This document shows positions 15,867 to 33,406 of a DNA stretch of 64,000 bases, one piece after another (within the stretch, counting starts at the first letter, position 1; every line of letters starts with the position of its first letter). This DNA comes from Chelativorans sp. AA-79 (lineage in GTDB: Bacteria > Pseudomonadota > Alphaproteobacteria > Rhizobiales > Rhizobiaceae), in the NCBI RefSeq assembly GCF_029457495.1, contig NZ_CP120361.1:4480001-4544000 (forward strand), given 5' to 3'. Both the position numbers and the translations under genes were made by a program. The notes under the pieces are model-generated. The model searched no databases. It saw only the letters and a program-made list of their open reading frames with translations, and was not told the DNA's origin.

Positions 15867-17939
15867 TTAGCCAGCCGCCTGGTCGAGGACCTCCAGCAGA
15901 TTGAAGGCGCGTTCGGCTCCGAAGCCGCTCTCCGCCGCCATCGCATCGACCGAAGCAAGAATTCGGTCGCGCGGCATTCGCGCCGCCCAATGCAGAGGGC
16001 CGCCGGCCAGCGCCGGAAAGCCGTAGCCGTGGACGAGCACCAGGTCGATGTCGCCCGCCCGCTCGGCGATTCCTTCGGCGAGCACCAGCGCCGCCTCGTT
16101 GACGATGGCCGCCAGCAGCCGATTTCTGATCTCGTCGTCACCGATGGCGCGCCGCTCGATGCCTTTTCTTTCCGACTCCGCCTCGATGACCGCCTGTACG
16201 TCCGGATCCGGCGCGCCGCGGGAAGAAGCGGAATAGTCGTACCAGCCCTTGCCCGTCTTGCGCCCGAAGCGGCCGATGTTGCAGAGAATGTCGGGAATTT
16301 CGACATAGCGCATCCGCGGATCGCGTTTGGGAGCAAGCCGCTTTCGAGTCGCCCAGGCGATGTCGAGCCCCGCAAGGTCGAATACGGCGAAGGGCCCCAT
16401 CGCCATGCCGAAATCGACCATCGCGCGGTCGACATCCTGCGGCAGGCAGCCCTCCTCGAGCAGGAACTCGCATTGGCGGCGGTAGGCGCTGAAGATGCGG
16501 TTGCCGATGAAGCCCTCGCCGACGCGGGCCACCACCCCCACCTTGCCGAGGCGCTTGCAGATCGAGATCAGCGTGGCCAGCGTCGCGGGCGCGATGTTTT
16601 CCGTGCGCACGATCTCCACGAGGCGCATGATGTGGGCGGGGTTGAAGAAGTGCAGCCCGCCAACGCGCTCCGGCCTGCTCGTTGCGGCGGCCATCTCGTC
16701 GAGATCGAGATAGGAGGTGTTGCTGGCCAGCACTGCCTCGGCACGCACGATCCCGTCCAGCCGGGCCAGGAGGGCCTTTTTGGCGGCCATGTCCTCGGTG
16801 ATCGCCTCGATGACGAGGTCACGGTCCGACATCTCCTCCAGACCGCCAGGCGAAAGTCGCGCCATCAGTTCATCCGCGGAGTGGACGCGGCCCCGGGAGG
16901 CGGCTTTTTCCGCTTCGCCGCGCAGCGCGGCGAGAGCGCTTTCCAGAACGGCTGGGTCGCTTTCGGAAAGGCGCACGTCGAAGCCGCGCAGCATGAAGGC
17001 GAGCGCAATGCCCTGCCCCATGCGCCCAGCGCCGACCACACCGACTTTGCTCACCCGAAGGGGTTCGGCGCCTTCCGGCGGGCGCGCCGCCTGGCGCTCG
17101 GAGAAGAAGAGGTGGCGCAAGGCCTTCGCCTGGGGTCCGACGCGCAGCCGCAGGGAGGTCTCGCGCTCACGGTACAGGGCCTTTTCCGCGGGCAGGACGG
17201 CGGAGGCCTTCACCGCTGCAATGGCCTCGGGCACTGCGGCGGCACCCTTCGCCCGTGCAAGCGCCTCGCGCTCAGCCGCTTCGATTTCCTCAGGATCGTT
17301 GGACGCCACGGCCAGTTCCCTGACGACCCGCTTGCGCCCGGTCATCGTCTTCAGATGCTCCAGGGCGCTATCCACGACGTCCCCCTCTGCCACCGCATCG
17401 ATCATCCCGAGCAAACATGCCTCCTGCGCCTTCACTCTGCGGCCGGAGGTGATGAGCGAGATCGCCCTGGCAATGCCGACGAGACGCGGCAGGCGCTGCG
17501 TGCCTCCGGCGCCGGGAATGAGGCCGAGAGTGACCTCCGGCAGGCCGATGATGCTGCGCGGCGTGGCGAGGCGCGCGTCGCAACCGAGCGCAAGTTCGTA
17601 ACCGCCGCCAAGTGCGGCTCCGTCGATCGCCGCCACCACGGGCACGGGAAGACTCTCGATGGCGGCAATGACCTCCGGGAGATGCGGCGCCTGTGGGGGT
17701 GCGTCGAATTCGCGAATATCGGAGCCGGCGACAAAATTGCCGTTGGCACCGGTGAGAACCACTCCGGCAAGCCCATCGTCATCGCGAAGGCGCGCGAACA
17801 CCTCCAACAGGTCGCGCCGCACCTGCAGCGAGCCGGCATTCACCGGAGGATTATCAATGGTGACGACAGCGATCCTTCCGGGTGCAAGATCGCTCCGCGT
17901 CTCCACCCGAACCGTTTTGCAGCTCTCGTCCGTATTCAT
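15867..17939 (-). CDS. Fused enoyl-CoA hydratase/3-hydroxyacyl-CoA dehydrogenase (PimF/FadJ-like)
   Basis: A 690-residue bifunctional beta-oxidation enzyme. The N-terminal crotonase domain (about 1-200) keeps both acid/base glutamates, in GGGYELALGCD and GLPEVTLGLIPGAGGTQRLP. The dehydrogenase domain starts near residue 298 with VGVVGAGRMGQGIA and has the catalytic His in GLHFFNPAHIMRLVEIV. The ATG at 17939 follows GGGGAGCACC. It lies 31 bases after two acyl-CoA dehydrogenase genes, an arrangement like pimCDF of Rhodopseudomonas palustris, which oxidises medium-chain dicarboxylic acids. Substrate assignment is by analogy only. Confidence 0.87.
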   Translation of the reverse strand: MNTDESCKTVRVETRSDLAPGRIAVVTIDNPPVNAGSLQVRRDLLEVFARLRDDDGLAGVVLTGANGNFVAGSDIREFDAPPQAPHLPEVIAAIESLPVPVVAAIDGAALGGGYELALGCDARLATPRSIIGLPEVTLGLIPGAGGTQRLPRLVGIARAISLITSGRRVKAQEACLLGMIDAVAEGDVVDSALEHLKTMTGRKRVVRELAVASNDPEEIEAAEREALARAKGAAAVPEAIAAVKASAVLPAEKALYRERETSLRLRVGPQAKALRHLFFSERQAARPPEGAEPLRVSKVGVVGAGRMGQGIALAFMLRGFDVRLSESDPAVLESALAALRGEAEKAASRGRVHSADELMARLSPGGLEEMSDRDLVIEAITEDMAAKKALLARLDGIVRAEAVLASNTSYLDLDEMAAATSRPERVGGLHFFNPAHIMRLVEIVRTENIAPATLATLISICKRLGKVGVVARVGEGFIGNRIFSAYRRQCEFLLEEGCLPQDVDRAMVDFGMAMGPFAVFDLAGLDIAWATRKRLAPKRDPRMRYVEIPDILCNIGRFGRKTGKGWYDYSASSRGAPDPDVQAVIEAESERKGIERRAIGDDEIRNRLLAAIVNEAALVLAEGIAERAGDIDLVLVHGYGFPALAGGPLHWAARMPRDRILASVDAMAAESGFGAERAFNLLEVLDQAAG

Positions 17940-17970
17940 GGTGCTCCCCTCAACTGTTCCCATCGGTGAC

Positions 17971-19161
17971 CTAGCTCGGCAGGCCCAGCACAGCTTTCGC
18001 CAGCACGTTGCGCATGATCTCGCTTGAGCCGCCGAAGATGGTCGTCGGCCGCGCCATCAGATAGGTGCCGGCTGCGTGGAGACGCGGATCGCCGTCGAGC
18101 GGGTCCCTGAGTCCCGCCGTTTCGCCTGCCACCTCCATCATCTCTTCCGAAATGCGTTGATACAGCTCGCTCTGGAAGATCTTCAGGATTGCCACGTCGG
18201 CGCCGATGGGCTCGCCACGGCGCAGCTTTTCCACGTAAGTCTCGAAGAGCGAAGTGAGATCTGCAAGGTCGAGCTTGAGGCGCGCGAACCGGTCTTCAAA
18301 GCCTGGATCGCCGGCAACGCCCATCCGCTTCGCGAGCAACCTCAGCCGCGACAGCGCGCCCTCTGAGAGCCGTGGCGCGCCGATGAAGACGCGCTCGTGG
18401 CCGAGCAGCGCCTTGGCCATCGTCCAGCCGTCATTGACCTTCCCCACGAGATGGTCCCTCGGCACGCGCACATTTTCGAAGAAGACCTCGCTGAACTCAT
18501 CGTGGAGCTCCAGGTTCATGATGGGCCTGACGGAGACGCCTTCCGCGTCCATCGGCACCAGCAGGAAACTGATGCCTGCCTGCTTCTTGACCGACCTGTC
18601 GGTGCGCGCGAGGATGAAGATCCAGTTGGCGTCACCGCCAAGCGTGGTCCAGGTCTTCTGGCCATTGATCACCCATTCCTCGCCGTCCAGCACGGCCTCG
18701 GTGCGCACAGCGGCAAGGTCCGAGCCGGCGTTGGGCTCACTGTAGCCTTGCGCCCATATGTGTTCGCCCGAAAGGATCTTCGGCAGGAAGAAGGCCTTCT
18801 GCTCCTCGGTGCCGTAGCGGATGATGAGCGGCCCGAGCATGACGATGCCGATATCGCTGACACGCGCGCAGCCGTAACGCTCGAACTCCTCGATCATGAT
18901 GAGCTGCTTGCCCGCCGAAAGTCCCATCCCGCCATATTCGCGCGGCCAGTTCGGGCAGAGCCAGCCGCGCCGCGAGAGCGTGAGATACCAGGGCTTGTTC
19001 TCCTCCCAATGCAGGCGCCGCTGCGCGTAGCGCGGGATATCCGGATAGTTTTCCTCAACGAAGCGGCGCACCACTTTCCGGAAATTCTCGTCGGAAAGAA
19101 GGTTCAGGTCTTCCTCGTCAGCTCGCGCATTCGCGGCCGAATCTGCGATTTCCGGCATCAT
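17971..19161 (-). CDS. Acyl-CoA dehydrogenase, large partner (PimC-like)
   Basis: A 396-residue flavoprotein dehydrogenase. It has QGYSEPNAGSDLAAVRT and INGQKTWTT (FAD and substrate contacts in the middle domain) and the C-terminal helical domain ending GGSSEIMRNVLAKAVLGLP. It overlaps the preceding, shorter acyl-CoA dehydrogenase gene by ATGA, so the two are translationally coupled and probably form a heteromer, as proposed for PimC/PimD and steroid-type dehydrogenase pairs. It introduces the 2,3 double bond for the downstream fused hydratase/dehydrogenase. Confidence 0.88.
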   Translation of the reverse strand: MMPEIADSAANARADEEDLNLLSDENFRKVVRRFVEENYPDIPRYAQRRLHWEENKPWYLTLSRRGWLCPNWPREYGGMGLSAGKQLIMIEEFERYGCARVSDIGIVMLGPLIIRYGTEEQKAFFLPKILSGEHIWAQGYSEPNAGSDLAAVRTEAVLDGEEWVINGQKTWTTLGGDANWIFILARTDRSVKKQAGISFLLVPMDAEGVSVRPIMNLELHDEFSEVFFENVRVPRDHLVGKVNDGWTMAKALLGHERVFIGAPRLSEGALSRLRLLAKRMGVAGDPGFEDRFARLKLDLADLTSLFETYVEKLRRGEPIGADVAILKIFQSELYQRISEEMMEVAGETAGLRDPLDGDPRLHAAGTYLMARPTTIFGGSSEIMRNVLAKAVLGLPS

Positions 19162-20219
19162 GCGGCCTCCGCGGTAAGATTTGCAAAGCGGCGGCGGTGG
19201 AGCGCCGGCGAACCGTAAAGGTTGCCCAGAACCATGGCCTTGCGGGCGAAGAGCCCGACATCGTATTCATCGGTGAAGCCGATGGCGCCGTGCATCTGGA
19301 TCGCTTCGCGGGCAACCAGAAAGGCCGTTTCGCCCGCGCGGCACTTGGCGCGCGAGACCGCCGCCGAGCGGGTAGCCCCCTCCGCGCCGCCGTCGATCGC
19401 CGCGGCAGCAGCCTCCACCGAGGCACGTGTCAGCTCGAGCTGGATCTTCATGTCGGTGGCCCGGTGCTGGAGCGCCTGGAAGCTGCCAATCGGCCTGTCG
19501 AATTGCCGGCGCGTCCGAAGATAGTCCATCGTCATCTGTAAGGCGCGCTCCGCCATGCCAAGGAGATAGGAGGCTGTGGCCAGCGCGGCCTCGTCGATCG
19601 CCTCATCGACTTCCTTCGCCGGGAGGATCGCAAGGGGGAGGCATCCATCCATGGCGAGCGTGCCCATTTCGCTGCCGTCCTGCATCGGCACGAGAGAAAG
19701 GCTCAGCCCCGCCGCATCACGCCTCAGAAGCGCAACACCATCGGGCGTGACGACGGCAAAGGCATCCGCGCCGGCCGCATATGGAACGAAGTGCTTGCGC
19801 CCACTCACCCGCCCGCCTCTTATGTTCGCACCGTCGCGCCATTCGAGGCTGTTGGCCTCATCTTGCCAAGCTGCAAGGCAGACCATCGCACCGGCGACAG
19901 CGTCATCCATAGGATTCGCCTGAACAAGGCGACAGGCAAGCGCCGCACCGATCAGCGGCTCCGGTACCAGGCCGGATCCGACCTCCTGTGCGAGGGCGCA
20001 ATATTCACGCATCCCGAGACCCAGCCCTCCGGAATCCTCCGGCAGACGAAGCGAGAGCCAGCCCATCTCGGCCATCAGCGCAAAGACGGAGCGGTCGAAC
20101 CCCGGAGACGTGAAGCGCAGGGCGCGAATGCGCGCAAGAGACCCGTCATTCGGCACCACTGCGCGCGCGCTTTCGCGGATCATGCGGACGTTTTCCGCCC
20201 AGTCCTCTTCGGCTTGCAT
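19158..20219 (-). CDS. Acyl-CoA dehydrogenase, small partner (PimD-like)
   Basis: A 353-residue acyl-CoA dehydrogenase homologue, first gene of the minus-strand operon. The C-terminal helical domain is recognisable (RTRRQFDRPIGSFQALQHRATDM, IQMHGAIGFTDEYDVG). The middle domain is shorter and lacks the clear flavin-contact motif of the large partner, as in the non-canonical subunits of heteromeric dehydrogenases. GGAGG-like sequence precedes the ATG. A motif shared with the distant binding-protein gene lies 14-36 bases upstream of the start, suggesting co-regulation. Confidence 0.85.
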   Translation of the reverse strand: MQAEEDWAENVRMIRESARAVVPNDGSLARIRALRFTSPGFDRSVFALMAEMGWLSLRLPEDSGGLGLGMREYCALAQEVGSGLVPEPLIGAALACRLVQANPMDDAVAGAMVCLAAWQDEANSLEWRDGANIRGGRVSGRKHFVPYAAGADAFAVVTPDGVALLRRDAAGLSLSLVPMQDGSEMGTLAMDGCLPLAILPAKEVDEAIDEAALATASYLLGMAERALQMTMDYLRTRRQFDRPIGSFQALQHRATDMKIQLELTRASVEAAAAAIDGGAEGATRSAAVSRAKCRAGETAFLVAREAIQMHGAIGFTDEYDVGLFARKAMVLGNLYGSPALHRRRFANLTAEAA

Positions 20220-20232
20220 CTTTCCTCCAATA

Positions 20233-20255
20233 TTCTAAAGATCAGTCCATTGTCC
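20233..20255 (-). promoter_or_regulatory. Candidate operator, copy 1 of a shared motif
   Basis: On the minus strand it reads GGACAAT, two bases, then ACTGATCTTTAGA. Copy 2 at 29860 has the same layout with a single difference in the second block (ACTGGTCTTTAGA). Both lie just upstream of operons of the CoA region. The likely binder is the UTRA-GntR regulator at 23017, by proximity. Confidence 0.5.
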
Positions 20256-20320
20256 TATTCGGTGCTTTCCGGGATGCCGACCGGCTTTCGGTTAGCAGCT
20301 TCGCGTATAAAATACAAACA

Positions 20321-20347
20321 TCTAGTCTTTTGGACTATAGAGTTTTG
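20321..20347. promoter_or_regulatory. Inverted repeat upstream of the crotonase gene
   Basis: TCTAGTC, a 5-base spacer and GACTATAGA form an imperfect inverted repeat, followed by GTTTTG. The left arm plus spacer (CTAGTCTTTT) resembles the CTG(A/G)TCTTTAG core of the shared motif. The 11-base string ATAGAGTTTTG (20337-20347) recurs on the minus strand at 22955-22965, just before the UTRA regulator gene. Confidence 0.42.
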
Positions 20348-20392
20348 ACACCTGTCGTGCTAGAGGGCGCCAAGAGACGTGGAAAGGGAACA

Positions 20393-21154
20393 ATGACGCT
20401 CAAGATCGACAAGCGTGACCGCATTGCAACGGTGACACTCGACCGCCCCCCGGTAAACGCGCTGACTCTCTCGCTCTACGAAGAGATCGCCGATCGCTTC
20501 GAGAACGCCTCCGACTGGGAGGACGTCAACTGCATCATTTTCACCGGGGCAGGCACACGCGCCTTCTGCGCCGGCCTCGATCTGCACGAGTTCCTGGCCG
20601 CGACGGTGGAGGAAGACCCCAAGCGGGCCGCCATCATCCGCCGTTGCTTCGGTGCCGTGCGCAACACAGCCGTTCCCGTGATCGCCGCCGTCAATGGCCC
20701 TGCCCTGGGGGCGGGCTGCGTGCTGGCTTCCCTTTGCGACATGCGGATCGCCGCGGAGAACGCCACCTTCGGCCTGCCGGAAATCAATGTCGGCCGCTGC
20801 GGCGGCGGCGCACATCTCGGCCGGCTGATCCCTCAGGGCGCGTTGCGCAGGATGTTCTTTACCGGCCAGCCGATCACGGCAGCCGAGGCTTACCGGATCG
20901 GCCTCGTCGAAGAGGTCGTCCCGGCCGAAGCGCTTGGCGAAGCCGCCGAACGCCTGGCGCGGCTCCTTGCAGAAAAGGCGCCGCTGGGCCTGAGGCTTGG
21001 CAAGGCCGCGCTGAACGAGGTTGAGTTCATGCCGGTGGAGGAAGGCTATGCGCGCGAGCAACAGTACAGCACGCGGCTGATGGCCACGGAGGATGCGCGG
21101 GAGGCCACCCGCGCTGTCGTCGAAAAGCGCCGGCCGGTCTTCCACGGCCGCTGA
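20393..21154 (+). CDS. Enoyl-CoA hydratase/isomerase-family protein
   Basis: A 253-residue crotonase-fold protein. The oxyanion loops are present (CAGLDL at about 59-64, NGPALGAGC at about 101-109). Only one of the two glutamates of true hydratases remains: Glu130 in GLPEINVG is kept, while the position of rat Glu144 is Val110 (GAGCVLASLCD). This favours isomerase, hydrolase or ring-opening chemistry over simple hydration. The start at 20393 follows GGAAAGGGAAC. It is divergent from the acyl-CoA dehydrogenase operon and 40 bases before the ABC permease gene, so it may be co-transcribed with the importer. Confidence 0.85.
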   Translation: MTLKIDKRDRIATVTLDRPPVNALTLSLYEEIADRFENASDWEDVNCIIFTGAGTRAFCAGLDLHEFLAATVEEDPKRAAIIRRCFGAVRNTAVPVIAAVNGPALGAGCVLASLCDMRIAAENATFGLPEINVGRCGGGAHLGRLIPQGALRRMFFTGQPITAAEAYRIGLVEEVVPAEALGEAAERLARLLAEKAPLGLRLGKAALNEVEFMPVEEGYAREQQYSTRLMATEDAREATRAVVEKRRPVFHGR

Positions 21155-21194
21155 TGGAATCGAGGTGCCGCCCATGAAATCGCAGGAGGCCAGC

Positions 21195-22949
21195 ATGACC
21201 GCCGAAACCGATCTCCGCTGGGAGGAGCGAACGGCACCGAGGCAAGGCTTCTTCGCCTCGCTCCTGCGCGACCCGCGCACACCGCTTGCTCTCGGCGTGG
21301 CCGTGTTGCTCGCCATCCTAGTACTGCCGCCGATCCTGATGCTCGCACAAAGCTCGGTGGCGGAAGTCGGCGCCAGCGGGGCGGTAGCCGGCTGGACTCT
21401 CGACCATTTCCGCAACCTGTTGACCGACCGGAATCTGGCGGAAAGCTTTTTCAACAGCATCATCTTCGCAGCAGGCAGCGCATTGGTCTCTTTTCTCGTC
21501 GGCGGCATTCTTGCCTGGCTCGTGGAGCGCACCAATGCGCCGCTGAAGGTGCTTGCCTATGTCACCGCCATCGTCTCCATGGGCACGCCCTATGTGCTTT
21601 ACGTCGTGGCGTGGCTCTTCCTGCTCGGCAATGTCGGGCCACTCAACATGGCCTACCGGCAACTCACCGGCTCGCCGGACATCCTGTTCTCGGTCAACTC
21701 CATGGCCGGCATGGTGCTGATCGAGGGATTCCTCTGGTCGCCGCTGGTCTTTCTCATGCTCTCCTCCACTTTCCGTGCCGCAAACGCCGATATGGAGGAG
21801 GCTGCACGCATGAGCGGCGCAAGCGTCTGGGACACGATCCGACGCGTGACGCTGCCGCTTGCCATGCCGTCGGTGATCGCGCTGGCCCTCTTCGTGTTCA
21901 TCCGCGCTGTGGAAGCCTTCGAGGTGCCTCTTCTGGTGGGAATGCCGGGCGGCATCGACGTCCTGACGACGGATGTCTACGAGAGCACGCAGCAGATGCC
22001 ACCCGATCTCGGCCATTCCTCGGCCTTCGCCATGGTGCTCATGGTCTTCGTGGCGATCCTCTTCACCTTCTACGGGCGGCTCGCCAAGAACGCGGACCGC
22101 TACCAGAGCATCACCGGCAAAGGATATCGGCCGCGGCTCTTCGATCTCGGTGGATATCGCCGTCTCGCAGGCCTGTTCATCCTCGTCGATTTCCTGATCG
22201 TGCTTCTCCTGCCGATCCTGGCGCTCATCTGGTTGTCGCTGCTTCCCTATATGAGCGGCGTCTCGCTCCGGATGCTGCCCTTCCTCAACATCGACAATTA
22301 TCGCGCAGTCTTCGATCATCCGCACTACCTTGAGCTCGCGGTGAACACGATCCTGGTCTCCGCGGGCGCGGCGACGATGGTCGTCGTCCTCACCGCGGTC
22401 TCGGGATGGATCGCCGCGCGGCGCGGACCAGGCGCCTGGCTGATCGACCAGCTCTCCACCATTCCGCTGATCTTCCCGGGTATCGTCATGGGCGTGGCGA
22501 TGATGCAGATTTACCTGCGCCTCCCCCTTCCGATCTACGGCACCCTGTGGGCGATCGTCATCGCCTATCTCATCCGCTACATGCCCTATGGCATGCGATA
22601 CGCCTATTCCGGCGTGCTGCAGATCCATCGTGAGCTCGAGGAGGCCGCGTCCGTCTCGGGCGCCCCGCTCCTTTCCACCTTGCGCCGGGTCGTTGCGCCG
22701 CTTCTGTCTCCGGCGCTGATCTCGGCCTGGATCTTCATCTTTCTCATCTGCTCGAAGGAGCTTGCCGTCGCGGTTCTGCTCGCGGGACCCAACTCCCAGG
22801 TCATCGCCGTCGCCATGCTCGATCTGTGGGTCAACGGACAGGGCGGGGAACTCGCCGCCTTCGGTCTCGTCTGGACCGTCGTCATGGTCACCCTCGCCAT
22901 CATCTTCTTCCTCTTTACGCGCAGCCGCGGGATGGAGGCTTTCCGGTGA
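21195..22949 (+). CDS. Fused two-domain ABC importer permease (iron(III)/AfuB-type)
   Basis: A 584-residue membrane protein containing two tandem permease domains of the BPD type, about 12 membrane segments. Each half carries an EAA loop for the ATPase: EEAARMSGASVWDTIRRVTL and EEAASVSGAPLLSTLRRVVA. I chose the ATG at 21195 because AGGAGG lies 5 bases before it; an ATG at 21174 is also possible. No ATPase or binding-protein gene is adjacent; the matching partners are about 7-8 kb downstream at 29924 and 31014. Despite annotation habits, this permease family also moves small organic acids and phosphonates. Confidence 0.88.
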   Translation: MTAETDLRWEERTAPRQGFFASLLRDPRTPLALGVAVLLAILVLPPILMLAQSSVAEVGASGAVAGWTLDHFRNLLTDRNLAESFFNSIIFAAGSALVSFLVGGILAWLVERTNAPLKVLAYVTAIVSMGTPYVLYVVAWLFLLGNVGPLNMAYRQLTGSPDILFSVNSMAGMVLIEGFLWSPLVFLMLSSTFRAANADMEEAARMSGASVWDTIRRVTLPLAMPSVIALALFVFIRAVEAFEVPLLVGMPGGIDVLTTDVYESTQQMPPDLGHSSAFAMVLMVFVAILFTFYGRLAKNADRYQSITGKGYRPRLFDLGGYRRLAGLFILVDFLIVLLLPILALIWLSLLPYMSGVSLRMLPFLNIDNYRAVFDHPHYLELAVNTILVSAGAATMVVVLTAVSGWIAARRGPGAWLIDQLSTIPLIFPGIVMGVAMMQIYLRLPLPIYGTLWAIVIAYLIRYMPYGMRYAYSGVLQIHRELEEAASVSGAPLLSTLRRVVAPLLSPALISAWIFIFLICSKELAVAVLLAGPNSQVIAVAMLDLWVNGQGGELAAFGLVWTVVMVTLAIIFFLFTRSRGMEAFR

Positions 22950-22954
22950 CGCGA

Positions 22955-25748: not shown

Positions 25749-26417
25749 GTGAAGCTTCATTGGTCACCCCGCTCACCCTTCGTGCGCAAGGTCATGATCG
25801 TGCTGCATGAGACCGGTCTTCAAAATCAGGTCGAATGCGTCCGCTCCGTCGTGGCTTTCGCAGGCACGCCGAACGAGGCAGTCCTTGCCGACAATCCGCT
25901 CGGGAAGATTCCCACCCTCGTGCTCGACGACGGCGGCGCACTTTTCGACTCGCGCGTCATCTGTGAATATCTGGACGGCCTTCACGACGGGCCGAGACTG
26001 TTTCCCAACGCCGGGCCGGAGCGTTTCCGCCAGCTGCGCTGGATGGCGCTGGCGGACGGGCTCACGGACATCCTGCTTCTCTGGCGCACCGAACGCACGC
26101 GACCGGACAGCGCATGGGACGTGCTTCTCTCCGCCTTCGAGCGCAAGACACGAGCCTGCTTCGAAAGGCTAGAGGCGGAGGCTGGCGAGATCACGACCGC
26201 CCCGTTCGGAATCGGCCACGCCGCCATCATTTGCGCGCTCGGGCAGATGGACTTCCGCTTCCAGGGGAGCCGCTGGGAAAGCGCGTTCCCGAGGCTTGCC
26301 GCCTGGTATGCGGAGGCGACGTCCCGGCCCTCGGTGGCGGCCACCGCCGTCGTGGATGATGCACCAGCCGGCGCGCCAGGCGATTCCGTCTCACCGTTCA
26401 CTTTCACGGCGGCATGA
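25749..26417 (+). CDS. Glutathione S-transferase family protein
   Basis: A 222-residue GST-fold protein. The thioredoxin-like N-terminal domain begins KLHWSPRSPFVRKVMIVLHE, with Ser residues near the glutathione thiol, and has the cis-Pro in GKIPTLVLDDG and the gamma-glutamyl site DSRVICEYLD. A helical C-terminal domain follows. The start is a GTG at 25749, which gives the typical GST N terminus. It overlaps the CoA-transferase gene by ATGA. In catabolic clusters such enzymes isomerise (maleylacetoacetate-type) or dehalogenate intermediates, so a pathway role is more likely than detoxification. Confidence 0.84.
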   Translation: MKLHWSPRSPFVRKVMIVLHETGLQNQVECVRSVVAFAGTPNEAVLADNPLGKIPTLVLDDGGALFDSRVICEYLDGLHDGPRLFPNAGPERFRQLRWMALADGLTDILLLWRTERTRPDSAWDVLLSAFERKTRACFERLEAEAGEITTAPFGIGHAAIICALGQMDFRFQGSRWESAFPRLAAWYAEATSRPSVAATAVVDDAPAGAPGDSVSPFTFTAA

Positions 26418-27634
26418 CCATGGCCGGTCCGCTTTCGCATATCCGCGTGCTCGACATGAGCCGCATCATGGCCGGCCCCTGGTCAGGACAGATCCTGGCC
26501 GATCTCGGAGCCGACGTGATCAAGATCGAGCGGCTTGGCGCGGGCGATGATACGCGCCGCTGGGGACCGCCGTTCCTGAAAGACGCGCAAGGCCGAGACA
26601 CCGCCGAATCCGGCTACTATCTCTCGGTCAATCGCGGCAAGCGGTCGGTAGAGGTGGACATTGCTGCGCCCGAGGGCCAGGAGATCGTGCGCGCGCTCGC
26701 CGCGCGGTCGGACATCCTGCTCGAAAACTTCAAGACCGGTACTTTGGCCCGTTACGGCCTGGCTTACGAGGACCTGAAGAAGGTCAATCCAAACCTCATC
26801 TACTGCTCCATCACAGGCTTCGGCGCCACAGGGCCGAAGCGTGACCAGGTGGCCTACGATTTCATGATCCAGGCCATGGGCGGGCTGATGAGCGTGACGG
26901 GCGAGCGGGACGACGCGCCTGGCGGCGGCCCGCAGAAGGTGGGCGTTCCCATCGTCGACATCATGACGGGCATGTATGCCACCATCGCCGTGCTGGCTGC
27001 GCTCGCGCGGAGATCGGAGACCGGCCAGGGCGAGCGGATCGACATCGGCATGCTTGATGTATCGGTGGCCATGCTCGCCAATCAGGCGATGAACTTTCTG
27101 GTCTCCGGAAAGACGCCGACCCGTAAGGGCAACAAGCATCCCAACATCCAGCCGCAGGACGTTTTCGCGGTGAAGGATGGACACATCGTGCTCGCCGTCG
27201 GCAATGACGAGCAGTTCCGCCGCTTTGCCGAAGCGATCGGCAGGCCCGGCCTGGCCGACGATCCTCGTTATGCGACCAATGTGGAGCGTGTGCGCAACCT
27301 CGACACGCTGCACCCGCTGATCTCGCAGGTGCTTGCCGAAAACACGCTCGATCATTGGCTTGACGCCTTCGGCAGCTGCAGCGTGCCATGCGGTCCGATC
27401 AACACCATTCCGAGGGTCTTCGAAGATCCTCAGGTCCGCCACCGGCAGATGCTGCGGCGGCTGGAGCATCCGCTTGCGGGCGAAGTACCGCAGGTGGTGA
27501 GTCCGATGCGGTTCGAAAATGCGCCGCTGGAGTTCAAGACCCCTCCGCCGCTCCTCGGCCAGCACACCGAGGCCCTTCTGGAGGAACTTGGCCTTCTCCA
27601 GGAAAAAGCCGCCGGTCGGAGTGGAACGCGATGA
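26414..27634 (+). CDS. Family III CoA-transferase (CaiB/BaiF), copy 1
   Basis: A 406-residue class III CoA-transferase. The N-terminal nucleotide loop reads LSHIRVLDMSRIMAGPW with GADVIKIE, and the catalytic Asp is in VGVPIVDIMTGMYA (about residue 180). It shares ATGA with the upstream GST stop. It transfers CoA from a donor thioester to an organic acid, and could activate the imported substrate because no acyl-CoA ligase is seen. It is related to, but clearly different from, the second copy at 32171. Confidence 0.88.
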   Translation: MTMAGPLSHIRVLDMSRIMAGPWSGQILADLGADVIKIERLGAGDDTRRWGPPFLKDAQGRDTAESGYYLSVNRGKRSVEVDIAAPEGQEIVRALAARSDILLENFKTGTLARYGLAYEDLKKVNPNLIYCSITGFGATGPKRDQVAYDFMIQAMGGLMSVTGERDDAPGGGPQKVGVPIVDIMTGMYATIAVLAALARRSETGQGERIDIGMLDVSVAMLANQAMNFLVSGKTPTRKGNKHPNIQPQDVFAVKDGHIVLAVGNDEQFRRFAEAIGRPGLADDPRYATNVERVRNLDTLHPLISQVLAENTLDHWLDAFGSCSVPCGPINTIPRVFEDPQVRHRQMLRRLEHPLAGEVPQVVSPMRFENAPLEFKTPPPLLGQHTEALLEELGLLQEKAAGRSGTR

Positions 27635-27641
27635 GGAGCCG

Positions 27642-28304
27642 ATGGCCCATGACCACCAGCAAGACCACTTTCCGGAGGACGAGACCGTGACGGCGCGCAT
27701 CACACTTCCCGGGCCGGAGAGCCTGTCACCCGAGCAGCGCGCCGTCTTCGACGCCGTCGTCCGCGGACCGCGCGGAGTCGTGGTCGGCCCCTTGCGTGCT
27801 GCTATCCACAGCCCCGAGCTTGCCGACCGATGGCAGCAGCTTGGCGAATTCCTTCGCTACAGGACGAGTCTTCCCGCGCGGCTCAACGAATTGGCCATCC
27901 TCGTCACCGCGCGGCGTTGGAACAGCGAACTGGAATGGAGCGTGCATGTCGAAGCGGCGAGGAAGGCGGGTCTGAAGGAGGAGGCGATCGAAGCGATACG
28001 CCAAGGGCGCCCACCGCGTTTTGCCGATGACGACGAGAGCGAAATCTACGCCTTTGCGCGCGAGCTTCAGCTTCATGGCCAGGTGAGCGAAGAAACCTAC
28101 AGGGCCGTGTCCAAGCGTTGGCGGGAACGCGGCGTGGTGGAGCTGACGGCGGTCATCGGCTATTACACCATGGTCTCGATGACGCTGAACGCGCACCGCA
28201 TCCCGCTTCCCGATGGCATGCCGCCTACCTTGAGCAGCGCCGGAGACGACGTGCCGTCGACCTTGAGCGCGCTTGCGCCGCTCGCAAGCGAGGGGCGGAC
28301 ATGA
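27642..28304 (+). CDS. Carboxymuconolactone decarboxylase (CMD)-family protein
   Basis: A 220-residue all-helical protein with the CMD signature RLNELAILVTARRWNSELEW followed by SVHVEAARKAG, giving the conserved Glu and His. It has no CxxC, so it is not an AhpD-type peroxidase. The start at 27642 follows GAGGAG; an alternative is the GTG at 27687. It lies 7 bases after the CoA-transferase. The enzyme may decarboxylate or isomerise a lactone intermediate processed by the PcaD-like hydrolase, but many CMD proteins have other or unknown roles. Confidence 0.8.
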   Translation: MAHDHQQDHFPEDETVTARITLPGPESLSPEQRAVFDAVVRGPRGVVVGPLRAAIHSPELADRWQQLGEFLRYRTSLPARLNELAILVTARRWNSELEWSVHVEAARKAGLKEEAIEAIRQGRPPRFADDDESEIYAFARELQLHGQVSEETYRAVSKRWRERGVVELTAVIGYYTMVSMTLNAHRIPLPDGMPPTLSSAGDDVPSTLSALAPLASEGRT

Positions 28305-28322
28305 GTCCGCCCGGGTGAAACC

Positions 28323-29192
28323 ATGACGATCAGCGACGCCGACATCAGCAGGCTCGCACGCGATCTCTACTCCTGGTCGCTGCGCAAGGTCCCGGACGAC
28401 ACAAAGGCCGCGCTGGAGCGGGCGCGCGACCTGGAGACTTCCGACACTGCACGGCGCACGCTGAACATGATGCTCGCCAGCGCCCGCGCCGCGGAAGAGC
28501 AGGACCGCTTCGTGTGCTCGGATTCGGGCGTTCCGGTCTATTTCGTGCGCATCGGCACAAGGGCGCGGTGGGATTCCAATATCAAGAGCGCCATCCGCGA
28601 GGGCTTCGAGACGCTGGTCGAAACGATCGACCCGCCCATTCTCAAACACGTGACCAATCCGCTGACGCTCGAGCGCGGCTATGCGGGCAAGGATATGCCC
28701 ATTGTCACCTTCGACCTCGTCGAAGATGCCGACTATATCGACATCACCTGCTCGCCCAAGGCGCTCGGCTCCGGCCGCTGGGCGGCCATGGAACTCTTCA
28801 CCTTCCCCACGCTCGAGACGATCGAGAGCTATATCCTCGACGTGGCGATCAAGGCTGGTTCCCAGCACTGCCCGCCCGTGGTCATGGGGGTCGGGATCGG
28901 CGGCACCTTCGATTATTGCGCCAAGATGGCCAAGGAGGCCACGCTGCGGCCGATCGGCAGCACCAGTGACGAGCCGATCCTGGCCGCGATGGAAGAGCGG
29001 CTGCGCGATGCCGTCAACGCCACAGGCTTCGGGCCGATGGGGACCGGTGGCGACACCACCGTACTCGCCGTGCATGTGAACTATGCAGCCGGCCACGGCT
29101 TCACCCCGGTCGCCGTCTGCTTCAACTGCTGGATAAACCGGCGAACGCGTGCACGCATATACAGTGACGGGACGGTGGAAAGGGTCGAATAG
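28323..29192 (+). CDS. Class I fumarase/tartrate dehydratase-like alpha subunit
   Basis: A 289-residue Fe-S hydro-lyase alpha subunit. Candidate cluster ligands are Cys65 (VCSDSGVP), Cys183 (QHCPPV) and Cys269 (FNCWINRR). GVGIGGTFDY is the family Gly-rich segment. The usual PKGGGSEN active-site motif is altered to PKALGSGRW at about 145-153, so the substrate is probably not fumarate or tartrate. It pairs with the beta subunit encoded 8 bases downstream. Mesaconate or another substituted butenedioate would suit a CoA-transferase cluster, but this is inference. Confidence 0.86.
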   Translation: MTISDADISRLARDLYSWSLRKVPDDTKAALERARDLETSDTARRTLNMMLASARAAEEQDRFVCSDSGVPVYFVRIGTRARWDSNIKSAIREGFETLVETIDPPILKHVTNPLTLERGYAGKDMPIVTFDLVEDADYIDITCSPKALGSGRWAAMELFTFPTLETIESYILDVAIKAGSQHCPPVVMGVGIGGTFDYCAKMAKEATLRPIGSTSDEPILAAMEERLRDAVNATGFGPMGTGGDTTVLAVHVNYAAGHGFTPVAVCFNCWINRRTRARIYSDGTVERVE

Positions 29193-29200
29193 GCGGCGCG

Positions 29201-29830
29201 ATGGCAGAACTCCATCACCATACGCTTCCACTCTGCCCGGAAGCCGCCGCGAGCCTCCAGCTCGGCGACATGGTCACGCTCGACGGGCCGATCGTCGTGA
29301 CCGCCGGCATCCCCACCCATCAGCGCATCCTCGATTGTATCCGCGACGGGCACAATCCACCGATTGGCCTCGACAACGCCGCCTTCTTCCATCTGGGCAG
29401 CTACAGCAAGGCGGGCGACGACGGCTTCGACGTTCTGTACATGAACCCGACCACAAGCACCCGTTTCAATGCGATGATGCCGGAGATCATCCGGCACTTC
29501 CGGCTTCGTTGCGTCGGTGGCAAGGGCGGGCTCGATGCCGATTGCGCCAAGGCGCTGGGCGAGGTAGGCGGCGTATATCTCTCCTTCCTCGGCGGCGGGG
29601 CGCCACTCATTTCCGGCGCCATCCGGCGCATCCGGCAGGTGGCCTGGGACGATCTCATCGCGCACTATCGGCTGGTTGCCATGGAGGTCGAACGACTCGG
29701 CCCGCTGACCGTGGCCATCGATGCGCGAGGCAACAGTCTCTACGACAGCCTGGCTGAGAGGGCGGCCGCTCGCCGCGCGGAGATTCTGGCAAAACTCGCA
29801 TCCGCCCGGGAAAAAGCCGCCGGCTCTTGA
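29201..29830 (+). CDS. Class I fumarase/tartrate dehydratase-like beta subunit
   Basis: A 209-residue C-terminal-type subunit with VTAGIPTHQRI near residues 35-45, NPTTSTRFNAMMPEIIRHF and the KGG loop (VGGKGGLDADCAKAL). These are hallmarks of the FumA C-terminal/TtdB domain. It completes the dehydratase with the alpha subunit at 28323. It is the last gene before the promoter and operator of the binding-protein operon. Confidence 0.86.
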   Translation: MAELHHHTLPLCPEAAASLQLGDMVTLDGPIVVTAGIPTHQRILDCIRDGHNPPIGLDNAAFFHLGSYSKAGDDGFDVLYMNPTTSTRFNAMMPEIIRHFRLRCVGGKGGLDADCAKALGEVGGVYLSFLGGGAPLISGAIRRIRQVAWDDLIAHYRLVAMEVERLGPLTVAIDARGNSLYDSLAERAAARRAEILAKLASAREKAAGS

Positions 29831-29842
29831 GGCAACGTCCGC

Positions 29843-29883
29843 TTGACCGGCCCTGTAAAGGACAATAAACTGGTCTTTAGATA
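29843..29883 (+). promoter_or_regulatory. Putative promoter with overlapping operator, copy 2 of shared motif
   Basis: TTGACC at 29843-29848 and TAAACT at 29866-29871 are separated by 17 bases. Overlapping the -10 box is the motif GGACAAT, two bases, ACTGGTCTTTAGA (29860 onward), nearly identical to copy 1 at 20233-20255. An operator covering the -10 box implies repression. It precedes the binding-protein gene by about 40 bases. Confidence 0.52.
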
Positions 29884-29923
29884 CATTTAGGCCAGCAGAC
29901 CGGAAATTCAAAGGGAGGAAGGA

Positions 29924-30961
29924 ATGCTCTTCGGAAGATTCGCCAAGGCGGCCGTGCTCGCGAGCACGCTGGCAATCGGCACCACACAGGCTTTCGCCAT
30001 CGACCAGGCGACGATCGACGCCGCCAAGCAGGAGGGCGAGGTGGTCTGGTACTCCGGCATGATCGTGAACCAGATCGTCCGGCCAATCGTCGAGGCGTTC
30101 GAGGCCAAGTATCCCGGCATCAAGGTCAACGCTGCGCGTCATACCTCGTCGGAAGTCGTTCTGAAGGTGCAGAGTGAGGCGCAGGCAGGAAGGCCGATGG
30201 CGGATGTCTTTGACGGCTCCTCGGCTGTCTTCCCCCTGATGGAGGCGGGTCTCGTCGAACCCTACAAGCCCGAAGCCGCCGCCGATTTCGACGAGCGCAC
30301 CAAGGACCCTGACGGCTACTGGACGGCCGCCAATCTCTACTTCATGGTTCCGGCGATCAACACCACGCTCGTTTCGGAAGCCGACCGCCCCGACACCTAC
30401 GAAAAGCTGCTCAACCCCAAATGGACCGGCAAGATCGCATGGACGTCCGATCCGACGATGCTCGGCGCCCCCGGCTTCATCTACACCGTGATGCAGACCA
30501 TGGGCGAAGAAAAAGGCAGCGAATATCTGGAGAAGCTCGCCGCGCAGAACATCGTCAACGTGCCCGCGAGCCAGCGCGTCGTGCTCGACAAGGTGATCGC
30601 CGGCGAGTTCCCGATCGGTCTCATGACATTCAACCACCACTCGGCCATCAGCGCGCAGAAGGGTGCGCCGGTGGAGTGGGTGAAGCTCGAACCGGTGATC
30701 CAGGCGGTCAATCCGCTCGGCATCGTCAAGAACGCGCAGCACCCCAACGCCGCCAAGCTTCTGGTCGAGTTCATCCTTTCGGAGGAGGGGCAGTCGGTGA
30801 TGCGCGATGCGCTCTATATCCCCGCCAACCCGAATGTCCCGGCGGCCGAGCCGACGCTGAAGCCCAAGGAGGGAGGCTTCGAGACCTTCGTGATATCGCC
30901 GGAGGCCACGGCGCGAGACCTGAAGGACATGGTCGCCATCTACGATAGGATGTTCAAATAA
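29924..30961 (+). CDS. ABC importer periplasmic binding protein (Fbp/AfuA-like)
   Basis: A 345-residue solute-binding protein with a signal peptide of about 25 residues (ending AFA) and a mature start IDQATIDAAKQEGEVVWYSG, typical of the iron(III)-type family. The paired tyrosines used for ferric iron are not evident near the C-terminal domain, and the genetic context is catabolic, so an organic acid ligand is more likely than iron. GGAGGAAGG precedes the ATG. It is followed by its ATPase, and the likely permease is the lone fused gene at 21195. Confidence 0.87.
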   Translation: MLFGRFAKAAVLASTLAIGTTQAFAIDQATIDAAKQEGEVVWYSGMIVNQIVRPIVEAFEAKYPGIKVNAARHTSSEVVLKVQSEAQAGRPMADVFDGSSAVFPLMEAGLVEPYKPEAAADFDERTKDPDGYWTAANLYFMVPAINTTLVSEADRPDTYEKLLNPKWTGKIAWTSDPTMLGAPGFIYTVMQTMGEEKGSEYLEKLAAQNIVNVPASQRVVLDKVIAGEFPIGLMTFNHHSAISAQKGAPVEWVKLEPVIQAVNPLGIVKNAQHPNAAKLLVEFILSEEGQSVMRDALYIPANPNVPAAEPTLKPKEGGFETFVISPEATARDLKDMVAIYDRMFK

Positions 30962-31013
30962 CCGCTACGGTCCGCGCCCCGAAAACCGTGGGTGCTGCTC
31001 TTTGGAATATCGA

Positions 31014-32174
31014 ATGATGACGGATTCTTCAGCGCTTCATGTAGATTTTCTCACCAAGGTCTATCAGGAGTCCGGCGGCTCGCCCGCCGGCGGCGTCCGA
31101 GACGCGAGCTTCGACCTTCCCGAGGGAACCTTCTTCACCCTTCTCGGCCCCAGCGGCTGCGGCAAGACGACCACGCTGCGCTGCATCGCAGGCCTGGAGT
31201 TCCCCGACCGGGGCTCGATCCGCGTCGGCGACCGGACGTTCTACAACTCCTCCGACGGCACCTGGGTGCCGATGAACCTGCGCAAGATCGGCATGGTCTT
31301 CCAGTCCTACGCGATCTGGCCGCATATGACGGTTTTCGAGAACGTCGCCTTTCCCTTGCGCGTGGCGAAGGACGAGAGGTTCAGCCGCCGCGACATCGAG
31401 GCGATGGTCAACGAGGCGCTGCGCACCGTCAGCCTCGATGGATTTGGCGGCAGGCCCGCCACCCGGCTTTCGGGCGGCCAGCAGCAGCGTGTGGCGCTCG
31501 CCCGGGCGATCGTCCGCAAGCCTAGGCTGCTGCTCCTCGACGAGCCGCTGAGCAATCTCGACGCGACCCTGCGCGAGGAGATGCGCAACGAGCTGAAACG
31601 CCTGCAGCGGCAGATCGGCGTCACGACCGTCTATGTCACGCACGACCAGACGGAGGCGCTGGAGATGTCGGATACGATCGCCATCATCAACGAAGGACGC
31701 ATCGTCCAGATGGGCTCCCCGCGCGAGATCTACTTCTCGCCCCAGGATTCCTTCGTCGCCAGTTTCGTGGGTTCCACCAACCTCGTCCGCGGCCGGCTCA
31801 TCGGGACCAGTGGCGGCGATGCGATCTCCGTCGAGATCGGCGGAGGCCAGACGATCGCCTGTTCACCACGCTCCCATTGCAGCAATTCCGGGCCGATCTC
31901 CGTGTCGGTGCGTCCGGAGACGATCCGTCTTTCCGCGCCGGGCGGGCCCGGCGGCGGAACATGCAACCGCGTGGAGGGCGAGGTGGTCATGTCCGGTTTC
32001 GTCGGCAACATGAACCGGTACCATATTCGCGTCGGCGACACGGTGTTCCAGGCGGGTGCCGAAGCCACGGCGGACTATCCAGTGGGCACCCGCGTCGCCA
32101 TGGACTTTCCCATCGAGACCACCCTTGCCTTCCCCTCAGCCTCCAGCGACCCGAGAAGCACCCCCCAAACATGA
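31014..32174 (+). CDS. ABC importer ATPase (PotA/FbpC type)
   Basis: A 386-residue ATPase. Walker A is GPSGCGKTT (about residues 45-53), the signature LSGGQQQRVALARA, and Walker B LLLLDEPLSNLD followed by the H-loop VTHDQTEAL. A C-terminal TOBE-type domain (about 290-375) follows. The start at 31014 or 31017 has only a weak ribosome site. The stop overlaps the second CoA-transferase gene by ATGA, which ties import directly to CoA activation. Confidence 0.9.
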   Translation: MMTDSSALHVDFLTKVYQESGGSPAGGVRDASFDLPEGTFFTLLGPSGCGKTTTLRCIAGLEFPDRGSIRVGDRTFYNSSDGTWVPMNLRKIGMVFQSYAIWPHMTVFENVAFPLRVAKDERFSRRDIEAMVNEALRTVSLDGFGGRPATRLSGGQQQRVALARAIVRKPRLLLLDEPLSNLDATLREEMRNELKRLQRQIGVTTVYVTHDQTEALEMSDTIAIINEGRIVQMGSPREIYFSPQDSFVASFVGSTNLVRGRLIGTSGGDAISVEIGGGQTIACSPRSHCSNSGPISVSVRPETIRLSAPGGPGGGTCNRVEGEVVMSGFVGNMNRYHIRVGDTVFQAGAEATADYPVGTRVAMDFPIETTLAFPSASSDPRSTPQT

Positions 32175-33406
32175 GCGGCTGCCTTTCCCATATTCGCGTG
32201 CTCGACCTGAGCCGCGTCTTCGCGGGCCCCTGGGCTACGCAGATCCTGGCTGATTTCGGCGCCGAGGTGATCAAGGTCGAGCATCCCGTCTACGGCGACG
32301 AAGCCCGCCATCTCGGCGTACACCGGCTGGACGAAGCCGGCAACGAAACCGGAGAGACCTCCTCCTTCCTCGCAATGAACCGCGGCAAGCAATCCGTGGC
32401 GATCGATTTCAAGAGCGCAGAGGGCCGGGAGCTAATCCGCCGGCTTGCGGCCAAATGCGACGTGGTGGTGGAGAATTTCAAGAGCGGCACTCTCGACCGG
32501 CAGGGCCTTGGCTATGAGGACCTGAAGGCGATCAATCCCGATATCATCTACTGCTCGATCACGGGCTTCGGCCAGACCGGTCCCTACGCCCACCTGCCCG
32601 GCTACGATCCGCTCTTCCAGGCCATGAGCGGCCTCATGAGCATCACCGGCGTGCCGGACGGCGAGCCCGGCGCGGGCCCCAATCTGGTGGGCTTCAGCGT
32701 TTCCGACATCATTGCGGGACTCTATGCGGCGATCGCCGTTCTCGGCGCAGTCAGCCACCGCGACAACGGCGGCAGCGGCCAGCATATCGACCTGTCGCTT
32801 CTCGATTGCCAGATGGCGGCGCTTTCGCATATCGGCATGAACTATCTTGTCTCAGGCCGTATGCCGGTACGCGCGGGAGCGGCTTCCCAGACCACATGCC
32901 CGTGGCAGGCCTTCCGCTGCGCGGACATGGATTTGATGATCGCGGTCGGCAACGATCGGCAATTCGCCAAGCTTTGCGAGGTTCTCGGGCTCGAAGGCGT
33001 CGCGGAGGACGCGCGGTTCCGCACCAATCGCGACCGCATGGCGCACAAGGCCATCCTCGTGTCGATCCTGGCCGAATGCTTCTCGCGGCGCACGGCAGCC
33101 GAGTGGCGCACCGATCTGGACCGCGCCGGCGTTCCGAGCAGCCCCATCAACAATTTCAGGCAGGCGCTGGAGGACCCGCAGATCGCCCATCGCGAAATGC
33201 TCTTTGAGATGCCCCATCCGCAACACGGCCCGTTTCGATTCTTCGCCAATCCGATCAGGTATTCCGAGACGCCCGCCAGCTATCGGAAATATCCGCCGCA
33301 GCTGGGCGCCGATACCGCACGGGTGCTCCAGGAATTGCTCGATCTCGGCTCCGAAGAGATCTCCAGCCTGGCGGCAGACAAGATCATCGCGCCGGACTCA
33401 CGCTGA
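32171..33406 (+). CDS. Family III CoA-transferase (CaiB/BaiF), copy 2
   Basis: A 411-residue class III CoA-transferase with LSHIRVLDLSRVFAGPW at the N terminus, GAEVIKVEHP and the catalytic Asp in FSVSDIIAGLYA (about residue 180). It is translationally coupled to the ABC ATPase by an ATGA overlap. The simplest reading is that it activates the acid brought in by the ABC importer, as succinyl-CoA- or acetyl-CoA-dependent transferases do for glutarate and related acids. Confidence 0.88.
   Translation: MSGCLSHIRVLDLSRVFAGPWATQILADFGAEVIKVEHPVYGDEARHLGVHRLDEAGNETGETSSFLAMNRGKQSVAIDFKSAEGRELIRRLAAKCDVVVENFKSGTLDRQGLGYEDLKAINPDIIYCSITGFGQTGPYAHLPGYDPLFQAMSGLMSITGVPDGEPGAGPNLVGFSVSDIIAGLYAAIAVLGAVSHRDNGGSGQHIDLSLLDCQMAALSHIGMNYLVSGRMPVRAGAASQTTCPWQAFRCADMDLMIAVGNDRQFAKLCEVLGLEGVAEDARFRTNRDRMAHKAILVSILAECFSRRTAAEWRTDLDRAGVPSSPINNFRQALEDPQIAHREMLFEMPHPQHGPFRFFANPIRYSETPASYRKYPPQLGADTARVLQELLDLGSEEISSLAADKIIAPDSR

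Follow-up and report, generated by a model that had tools for sequence, protein, structure and literature searches.

Gene content of the Chelativorans unit

The window analysed here, 64,000 nucleotides of Chelativorans sp. AA-79 (C1:4480001–4544000, in a genome of 5.76 Mb and three contigs), carries a unit of 23 genes arranged as two divergent runs, one on the minus strand (9338–20219) and one on the plus strand (20393–33406), the latter interrupted by a single minus-strand gene (Table 1). We give about an even chance to the reading that the unit forms a single catabolic system, with a GntR-UTRA regulator, that imports a polycarboxylic acid or a muconolactone-type lactone and converges on 3-oxoadipyl-CoA. 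Its substrate is most likely a ring-cleavage-type compound of the carboxymuconate, muconolactone or 2-pyrone-dicarboxylate class; because the unit's genes include no ring-cleaving oxygenase, this compound would be taken up ready-made.

Gene families were assigned with Pfam and NCBIfam scans, the window being annotated as far as 39169, and gene starts that depart from the open frames follow our reading of ribosome-binding sites. All gene types named in a preliminary description of the locus were present in these scans. Its boundaries (15867–33406) were too narrow: the segment at 9338–15689, encoding a flavin-reductase-like protein, a 2-hydroxyacid dehydrogenase, TctA, TctB, LeuD- and LeuC-like subunits and TctC, belongs to the unit too, and its homologues recur together with the core genes in other genomes. 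The alpha/beta hydrolase gene within the plus-strand run had also been overlooked. Neither an acyl-CoA ligase nor a thiolase was found among the 23 genes in the Pfam and NCBIfam scans, so the earlier statement to that effect holds for the unit in the window, although some related clusters carry a PcaF-class thiolase.

The solute-binding protein, permease and ATPase of a single Fbp-type importer are all present, and because their homologues are contiguous in Pseudolabrys loci L008 and L010 we regard the genes in the window as one split system, as had been proposed. Both CoA-transferases match PF02515 over their full length; in comparison with solved proteins, which covers CoAT1 only, that enzyme scored 374 bits against 4ed9 and 335 bits against SUGCT (9br6), with racemases at about 125 bits or less. 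The solved sequence nearest to the large acyl-CoA dehydrogenase partner is 4x28, which we take to be a heteromeric dehydrogenase, and the small partner scored 127 bits against the IpdE2 model (cut-off 450). Membership of the PimC and PimD families was rejected for this pair, at 283 bits for the large partner (TIGR03204, cut-off 623.85) and 116.1 bits for the small one (TIGR03203, cut-off 652.7); as a family statement, the earlier label 'pimCDF-like' therefore falls.

Table 1 Features of the catabolic unit, in window coordinates
Feature	Position	Strand	Family match or remark
Flavin-reductase-like protein (fldRed)	9338–9964	-	PF01613, 80 bits
D-isomer-type 2-hydroxyacid dehydrogenase (hacidDH)	9986–10897	-	PF02826/PF00389
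TctA, large membrane subunit of importer	10887–12431	-	PF01970, 530 bits
TctB, small membrane subunit of importer	12422–12943	-	PF07331
LeuD/homoaconitase-type hydro-lyase, small subunit	12880–13398	-	TIGR02087, 119.8 bits (cut-off 108.95)
LeuC/homoaconitase-type hydro-lyase, large subunit	13395–14711	-	PF00330; hacA_fam, 324.5 bits (cut-off 385.7)
TctC, solute-binding protein	14724–15689	-	PF03401
FadB/FadJ-like enoyl-CoA hydratase/3-hydroxyacyl-CoA dehydrogenase fusion	15867–17963	-	PF00378, PF02737, PF00725
Acyl-CoA dehydrogenase, large partner (distant PimC relative)	17971–19161	-	Pfam, NCBIfam
Acyl-CoA dehydrogenase, small partner (IpdE2/PimD-like), coupled to large partner	19158–20219	-	Pfam, NCBIfam
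Divergent promoter region with inverted repeat at 20323–20337	20220–20392		Weak; alone not above chance
Crotonase (ech)	20393–21154	+	PF00378
Fbp-type ABC importer permease	21195–22949	+	PF00528, two stretches
UTRA-GntR regulator	23017–23760	+	PF00392, PF07702
Alpha/beta hydrolase (abh2)	23819–24706	-	PF12697
PcaD-type enol-lactonase	24821–25645	+	TIGR02427, 264.7 bits (cut-off 255.85; on longer frame 24752–25645)
YibF-type glutathione S-transferase (GST)	25713–26417	+	
Family III (CaiB-type) CoA-transferase CoAT1	26414–27634	+	PF02515, 438 bits
Carboxymuconolactone-decarboxylase-family protein (CMD), no CxxC	27687–28304	+	PF02627 (on longer frame 27519–28304)
Class-I-fumarase-type alpha subunit (FumA), variant motif CSD	28323–29192	+	PF05681, 219.8 bits
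Class-I-fumarase-type beta subunit (FumB), Arg-to-Gly variant	29201–29830	+	PF05683, 76.1 bits
ABC importer solute-binding protein	29924–30961	+	PF13343/PF13416
ABC importer ATPase with TOBE domain	31014–32174	+	PF00005, PF08402 (on frame 31002–32174)
Family III CoA-transferase CoAT2	32171–33406	+	PF02515, 431 bits (longer frame 31877–33406); start refined

The gene set recurs in distant proteobacteria

A FumA scan covering 84,980 species, each represented by a single genome, yielded 111 relatives, with 80 loci kept. As clustering of open reading frames merged CoAT1 with CoAT2, locus counts were taken from a tblastn panel requiring at least 60 bits and at least 40% identity (at least 30% for hacidDH, fldRed, tctC, abh2, ech, the lactonases, fumB, leuD, PaaH, CoAT2 and the pca controls); 17 of the 80 loci are no longer than 18 kb, and absences there carry little weight. 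Homologues of gst and cmd occur together in 51 of the 80 fumA-centred loci, within stretches of at most about 21 kb (hereafter core loci), and 43 of these 51 also contain CoAT1; gst, CoAT1 and cmd lie on the same strand within 4.5 kb in 35 of the 80. Matches per gene over the 80 loci were 56 for gst, 51 for cmd, 49 for CoAT1, 44 for the 2-hydroxyacid dehydrogenase, 41 for the crotonase, 31 for gntR, 21 for the alpha/beta hydrolase, 20 for the flavin-reductase-like protein, 15 for CoAT2, 13 for PcaD, 10 each for LeuC, LeuD and pimC, 9 for pcaF, 7 for pimD and 6 each for FadB and PaaH. In 78 of the loci, FumB lies next to FumA. The co-occurrence of unit genes exceeds chance. The control comprised six of 84 plasmid records with less than 60% identity to FumA, read with 8 kb flanks (one unannotated, one cut by the record start): neither gst nor cmd was found in these six distant fumarase/tartrate dehydratase neighbourhoods, and CoA-transferases appeared at just 37–38% identity in two. 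Two distant FumAB loci, on a Thermus plasmid (L159) and on Aminobacter pUSP2 (L160), lie with GntR, CoA ester lyase and CaiB genes, the Thermus locus also with acyl-CoA dehydrogenase and MaoC genes, and are probably C5-dicarboxylate clusters.

A second set of loci was centred on cmd and holds 8 of 10 candidates, nine of which came from the search of the order and one from the phylum-wide search described below, L140 and L144 being the same contigs as L069 and L062 of the fumA set. Genes for gntR, gst, CoAT1, cmd, a lactonase and ech are present in all eight, and FumAB in four; the conserved heart therefore consists of these six genes, to which FumAB, LeuCD, pimCD/CoAT2, FadB/PaaH/PcaF and the importers seem to be added as modules. 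Carriers were found in alpha-, beta- and gammaproteobacterial records, including Sulfitobacter, Roseibium, Devosia, Roseomonas, Pseudomonas and Burkholderiales, so the absence of co-conservation that would have told against the preliminary description was not observed; its proposal of one acid-catabolic system, in which CoA-transferases would activate the acid, is supported. A plasmid of Roseomonas haemaphysalidis holds a near-complete set (PcaD-like hydrolase, FumAB, hydroxyacid dehydrogenase, GntR, GST, CoAT1, CMD, crotonase, pimC, CoAT2 and pimD, with TctC, LeuC, LeuD and flavin reductase on the opposite strand), and R. marmotae has the same set, likewise on a plasmid, minus a listed GntR. 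Close cmd relatives (E ≤ 1e-60) occur in 10 of 297 whole genomes of the order, our own counted, and in none of 12 other genomes of the same family, one of which gave a weaker match (2.6e-35); at E ≤ 1e-25 the count in the order rises to 63 of 297, distant paralogues included. A phylum-wide search at E ≤ 1e-45 found cmd in 2 of 398 genomes, our own included, possibly an undercount with at most seven candidates scored per genome. This sporadic occurrence, together with the plasmid copies, fits horizontal spread, and recurrence in many genera suggests as substrate an acid that is probably widespread in the environment, perhaps one released when lignin or tannin is degraded.

Could the window simply hold several unrelated catabolic operons that happen to be neighbours in a catabolic island? 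The flanks are clearly other, sugar-acid operons, and parts of the unit can be absent in relatives, as this explanation would have it. The same sets nevertheless turn up in distant lineages, in rearranged gene order and with other importers, and leuC homologues are confined to core loci (10 of 10); we consider the explanation highly improbable. On the left, a plus-strand operon (3572–9316) encodes TctC/TctA, a KdgD-like protein and an L-arabinonate dehydratase (6632–8371; 1080 bits, cut-off 882). On the right, the minus-strand genes at 33519–39169 encode a xylose-isomerase-like TIM barrel, a class II aldolase, a protein of the four-carbon acid-sugar-kinase (OtnK-like) type, these three lying at 33519–36192, a DRL oxidoreductase and TctA, a group that looks like a threonate-type operon. 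Both flanking groups were taken as separate from the unit.

An inverted repeat, TAG[T/A]C-N0-7-G[T/A]CTA, occurs twice in the window (20323–20337 and 24720–24730), each time between genes of the unit, the pattern having been picked after both copies had been seen. We do not claim this possible GntR operator as such: the fixed-gap form with one mismatch allowed was found once against 0.8 expected, and relatives gave it no support (2 matches in 437 kb over 21 related loci).

Lactonases and dioxygenases suggest a link to ring cleavage

Three lines of evidence, namely the lactonases, a PcaHG-like dioxygenase and a CMD-PcaD fusion, point to a muconolactone-like intermediate. The PcaD of the window lies above the cut-off for 3-oxoadipate enol-lactonase (TIGR02427), and in other strains an amidohydrolase takes its place. 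Among the 51 core loci, 9 carry PcaD, 25 the amidohydrolase, none both and 17 neither; the eight cmd-centred loci divide into five with PcaD and three with the amidohydrolase; and over all 80 loci, 13 PcaD and 29 amidohydrolases add up to 42 without overlap, the 29 taking in a few remote paralogues (about 32–34% identity; for example, L053, L074, L081 and L082). If loci were independent, the alternation in the core loci would have a P value of 0.001, a guide value only as the sequences are related. For two amidohydrolases examined, the best NCBIfam model was 4-sulfomuconolactone hydrolase (121 and 152 bits, cut-off 500), and the nearest solved relative of one was LigI. On a Variovorax plasmid (L121:14916–18069), a gene of the tannase/feruloyl-esterase family stands in line with the amidohydrolase lactonase and cmd.

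A PcaHG-like intradiol dioxygenase is encoded in L018, L029, L056, L059, L060, L066 and L077 and on a P. marcusii plasmid; five loci have it immediately after FumAB. Of the seven loci, six also gave a match to its PcaG partner, and L066 is truncated at that point. The eight clade copies of PcaH, P. marcusii included, form their own branch (support 0.87), from which the distant type in L028 and the canonical-looking pair in L141 were excluded. At a position that we take to be Trp449 they have Val, in contrast to Trp or Tyr in 10 other sequences (L028 not counted), and their beta subunits retain the Tyr/Tyr/His/His positions, presumably the iron ligands. We rejected an assignment as plain protocatechuate 3,4-dioxygenase, as all seven clade genomes hold another pcaH closer to the canonical gene of our genome (50–70% versus 42–46% identity, with copies matched to loci by coordinates). 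Our genome has pca-type genes, canonical-looking copies among them, at C1:2151–2154 kb, where pcaB, pcaC, pcaG and pcaI were named by eye. In the genomes with a clade dioxygenase, pca-type genes, a PcaB-like one among them, lie away from these loci. A PcaB-like match was present in 10 of 10 genomes examined, at 34–38% identity to our own genome's protein outside that genome; at 30% or more identity and 60 bits, no PcaB homologue was found in the 80 loci, one 28% match in L045 falling below the threshold.

In two Advenella loci (L038 and L039), a CMD-PcaD fusion is encoded near ApbA and FumAB. For the CMD of the unit the function of an AhpD peroxidase was considered: 14 sequences show no conserved Cys pair, yet the fold is nearest to AhpD-type proteins, so a peroxidase role is at most a candidate one. 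No solved relative of it was found by sequence; a wide protein search returned 4483 relatives at E ≤ 1e-30, and among the 120 listed the named ones carry family names only. Beside a rather complete unit in Granulosicoccus (L013:3844–5124), an FAD monooxygenase of the PRK07538 subfamily stands in line with a GST gene.

The branched or cyclic dicarboxylate guessed at in the preliminary description would follow a different course: CoA activation of an aliphatic acid, desaturation by the paired dehydrogenases and beta-oxidation, with PcaD and CMD acting on a side lactone. It would account for the two CoA-transferases, the paired dehydrogenases and the FadB-like fusion; distant fumAB loci on the Thermus and Aminobacter plasmids combine CaiB with CoA ester lyase, as expected for C5 dicarboxylates; and, according to PMC4682846, mesaconate hydration is within reach of class I fumarases. 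The dehydrogenase pair, however, is found in just 7–10 of the 80 loci, compared with 51 for cmd and 42 for a lactonase of either type, and this explanation would not predict intradiol dioxygenases in relatives. We therefore consider it rather unlikely, and the lactonases of muconolactone or 2-pyrone-dicarboxylate type and the intradiol dioxygenases of related clusters favour an aromatic-ring-cleavage-type lactone or tricarboxylate.

A variant class I fumarase

The unit encodes both iron-sulfur hydro-lyase subunit families of class I fumarase and L-tartrate dehydratase, in a form that lacks two residues nearly constant in the distant class I enzymes read, the Gln of CQDTG and the Arg of TARD. 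All 86 alpha subunits of the clade read CSD[A/S/N]G, whereas the six distant relatives have CQDTG (five) or CHDTG (one). Gly replaces Arg in 84 of 85 beta subunits, the match of the 85th beginning after the site; aligned solved fumarases have Arg there, and RD is present in all five distant beta sequences read, the sixth not having been located. Other pocket residues, the TTSxR motif and the Lys of GKGG, are retained. We assume that the missing Gln and Arg bind a carboxylate of malate, and their loss suggests that the clade is probably inactive on plain fumarate, malate or tartrate. The Leishmania enzyme has Ala at the Arg site in 6uq8 and Arg in the aligned 6uqm; we took the Ala as an engineered change, and a literature search for this enzyme found no paper naming the residue. 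The CSD motif and the lost Arg serve as a sequence mark: among the class I enzymes read, they set apart this clade, whose members public databases name 'fumarate hydratase'.

An oxidoreductase of one of three types is encoded near FumAB in 60 of the 80 loci (D-hydroxyacid 44, ApbA 11 and Ldh2 6), suggesting a 2-hydroxy or 2-oxo acid as product or substrate of FumAB. A second FumAB of the variant clade is encoded in our own genome (locus L087, C1:1708000–1726000, with FumAB at 8354–9890 of the locus), among genes for TAXI-TRAP, MaoC, a short-chain dehydrogenase/reductase, an AMP-ligase and DUF6282; a similar cluster lies on a Mameliella alba plasmid, and this is perhaps another undescribed acid pathway. 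As this copy belongs to a different gene set, the clade serves at least two pathways. With considerable doubt, we entertain the idea that FumAB is a (carboxy)muconate hydratase replacing PcaB, which would hydrate the mesaconate-like half of a 3-carboxymuconate-type acid, the hydroxy acid then closing to 4-carboxymuconolactone. Known solutions for this ortho-cleavage step include bacterial fumarase-II-type enzymes and fungal cycloisomerases; if the idea is true, FumAB would be a further independent solution, in an iron-sulfur enzyme.

The frequent hydroxyacid oxidoreductases also agree with a gallate-type pathway, in which a PcaHG-like enzyme or another organism makes 2-pyrone-4,6-dicarboxylate (PDC) or 4-oxalomesaconate, the lactonase opens PDC, and the hydroxyacid dehydrogenase and FumAB/LeuCD handle the oxo- and mesaconate-like parts. 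LigI, the solved protein nearest to one amidohydrolase, and the tannase-family gene of the Variovorax plasmid fit such a scheme. Yet it leaves CoAT1, ech, FadB and the 3-oxoadipyl-CoA thiolase unexplained, we know of no PcaD that acts on PDC, and the scans showed no CHA aldolase in the unit, no search having been aimed at this enzyme. Conversion of gallate to PDC by PcaHG, as reported in PMC12481942, speaks for the scheme, which on balance seems unlikely.

Proposed route and exit at 3-oxoadipyl-CoA

Returning to convergence on 3-oxoadipyl-CoA, we infer the reactions, their order and the substrate as follows. Uptake would be by TctABC and the Fbp-type ABC importer. The FumAB-like and LeuCD-like hydro-lyases and the 2-hydroxyacid dehydrogenase may first alter how far an unsaturated or hydroxylated polycarboxylate is hydrated and oxidised. 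PcaD, or in other strains the amidohydrolase of LigI/sulfomuconolactone-hydrolase type, would then open an (enol-)lactone; at this stage the CMD-fold protein is a candidate decarboxylase and GST a possible isomerase. In a third step, CoAT1 would load the resulting dicarboxylate with CoA, while CoAT2 and the paired acyl-CoA dehydrogenases could feed in a saturated acid. The crotonase and the FadB-like fusion would make 3-oxoadipyl-CoA, which a thiolase encoded elsewhere in the genome is predicted to split into succinyl-CoA and acetyl-CoA.

The exit is placed at 3-oxoadipyl-CoA on account of the thiolases of relatives and the company kept by a CoAT1 relative. A thiolase gene lies beside FadB in the P. 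marcusii and Primorskyibacter clusters and within about 6 kb of it in Granulosicoccus. The P. marcusii protein passes the 3-oxoadipyl-CoA thiolase (PcaF) model (703 bits, cut-off 597), and thiolases other than this one were matched by similarity alone; our own genome encodes one 79% identical to it (C1:829163–830359). A pcaF homologue is present in nine of the 80 loci, in one at just 40% identity. A CoAT1 relative, 57% identical, belongs to an IS1071-flanked cluster of acyl-CoA dehydrogenase, TctC, CoA-transferase, FadB and PcaF genes.

Several observations weigh against this route. FumAB is not obligatory, the other four cmd-centred loci lacking it in the fetched stretch, and 29 of the 80 fumA-centred loci lack the gst-cmd pair, so fumAB also serves other pathways. 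Within the fetched stretches, 8 of the 51 core loci have no CoAT1 and 17 neither lactonase; a PcaF homologue is found in 6 of the 51 and FadB or PaaH in 11. The PcaD of the window is the sole strong PcaD-type match of its genome, the next being 35% identical, and may act, additionally or instead, in ordinary protocatechuate breakdown. Any pcaH-like match is confined to 8 of the 80 loci, one of them distant (L028), and the unit itself has no dioxygenase; no clade-type PcaH copy was found in our genome, where the best match is its own canonical gene (44%). Finally, the CMD fold is closest to AhpD-type proteins, ahead of several solved carboxymuconolactone decarboxylases, so decarboxylation is weakly founded.

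Comparison with known systems

We read the unit as an apparently undescribed variant within the known range of aromatic- or dicarboxylate-type catabolic clusters rather than as a category of its own. In line with the novelty suggested in the preliminary description, a literature search by combinations of enzyme names, confined to one collection of 5.39 million papers, found no paper describing this gene set. The unit unites enzymes annotated by family alone—the variant fumarase, the LeuCD-type hydro-lyase, GST, the AhpD-fold CMD and the CaiB transferases—and a single growth screen could give functions to all of them.

Clusters for itaconate and methylsuccinate share a CoA-transferase and an acyl-CoA dehydrogenase with the unit, and class I fumarases act as mesaconases, according to PMC12290011 and PMC4682846; the unit differs in having no CoA ester lyase or MaoC among its 23 genes, and the CQDTG and RD residues are missing from its FumAB clade. 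With pimCDF and pimeloyl-CoA degradation it shares paired acyl-CoA dehydrogenases and a FadB-like fusion. The amidohydrolase that replaces PcaD in many relatives is of the same family as the lactonases of the 4-sulfocatechol route and LigI, but these amidohydrolases score far below the cut-off, and the window has PcaD instead.

The protocatechuate branch of the beta-ketoadipate pathway (PcaHGBCDIJF) differs in several respects: at threshold, the 80 loci contain no homologue of PcaB, PcaC or PcaI of our genome; CoA transfer in the unit would fall to a family III enzyme; and the unit adds GST, a crotonase, FumAB, LeuCD, a hydroxyacid dehydrogenase and two importers. The two are nonetheless alike in a PcaD above cut-off, a CMD-family protein and probable convergence on 3-oxoadipyl-CoA, and some relatives of the unit add a PcaHG-like dioxygenase.

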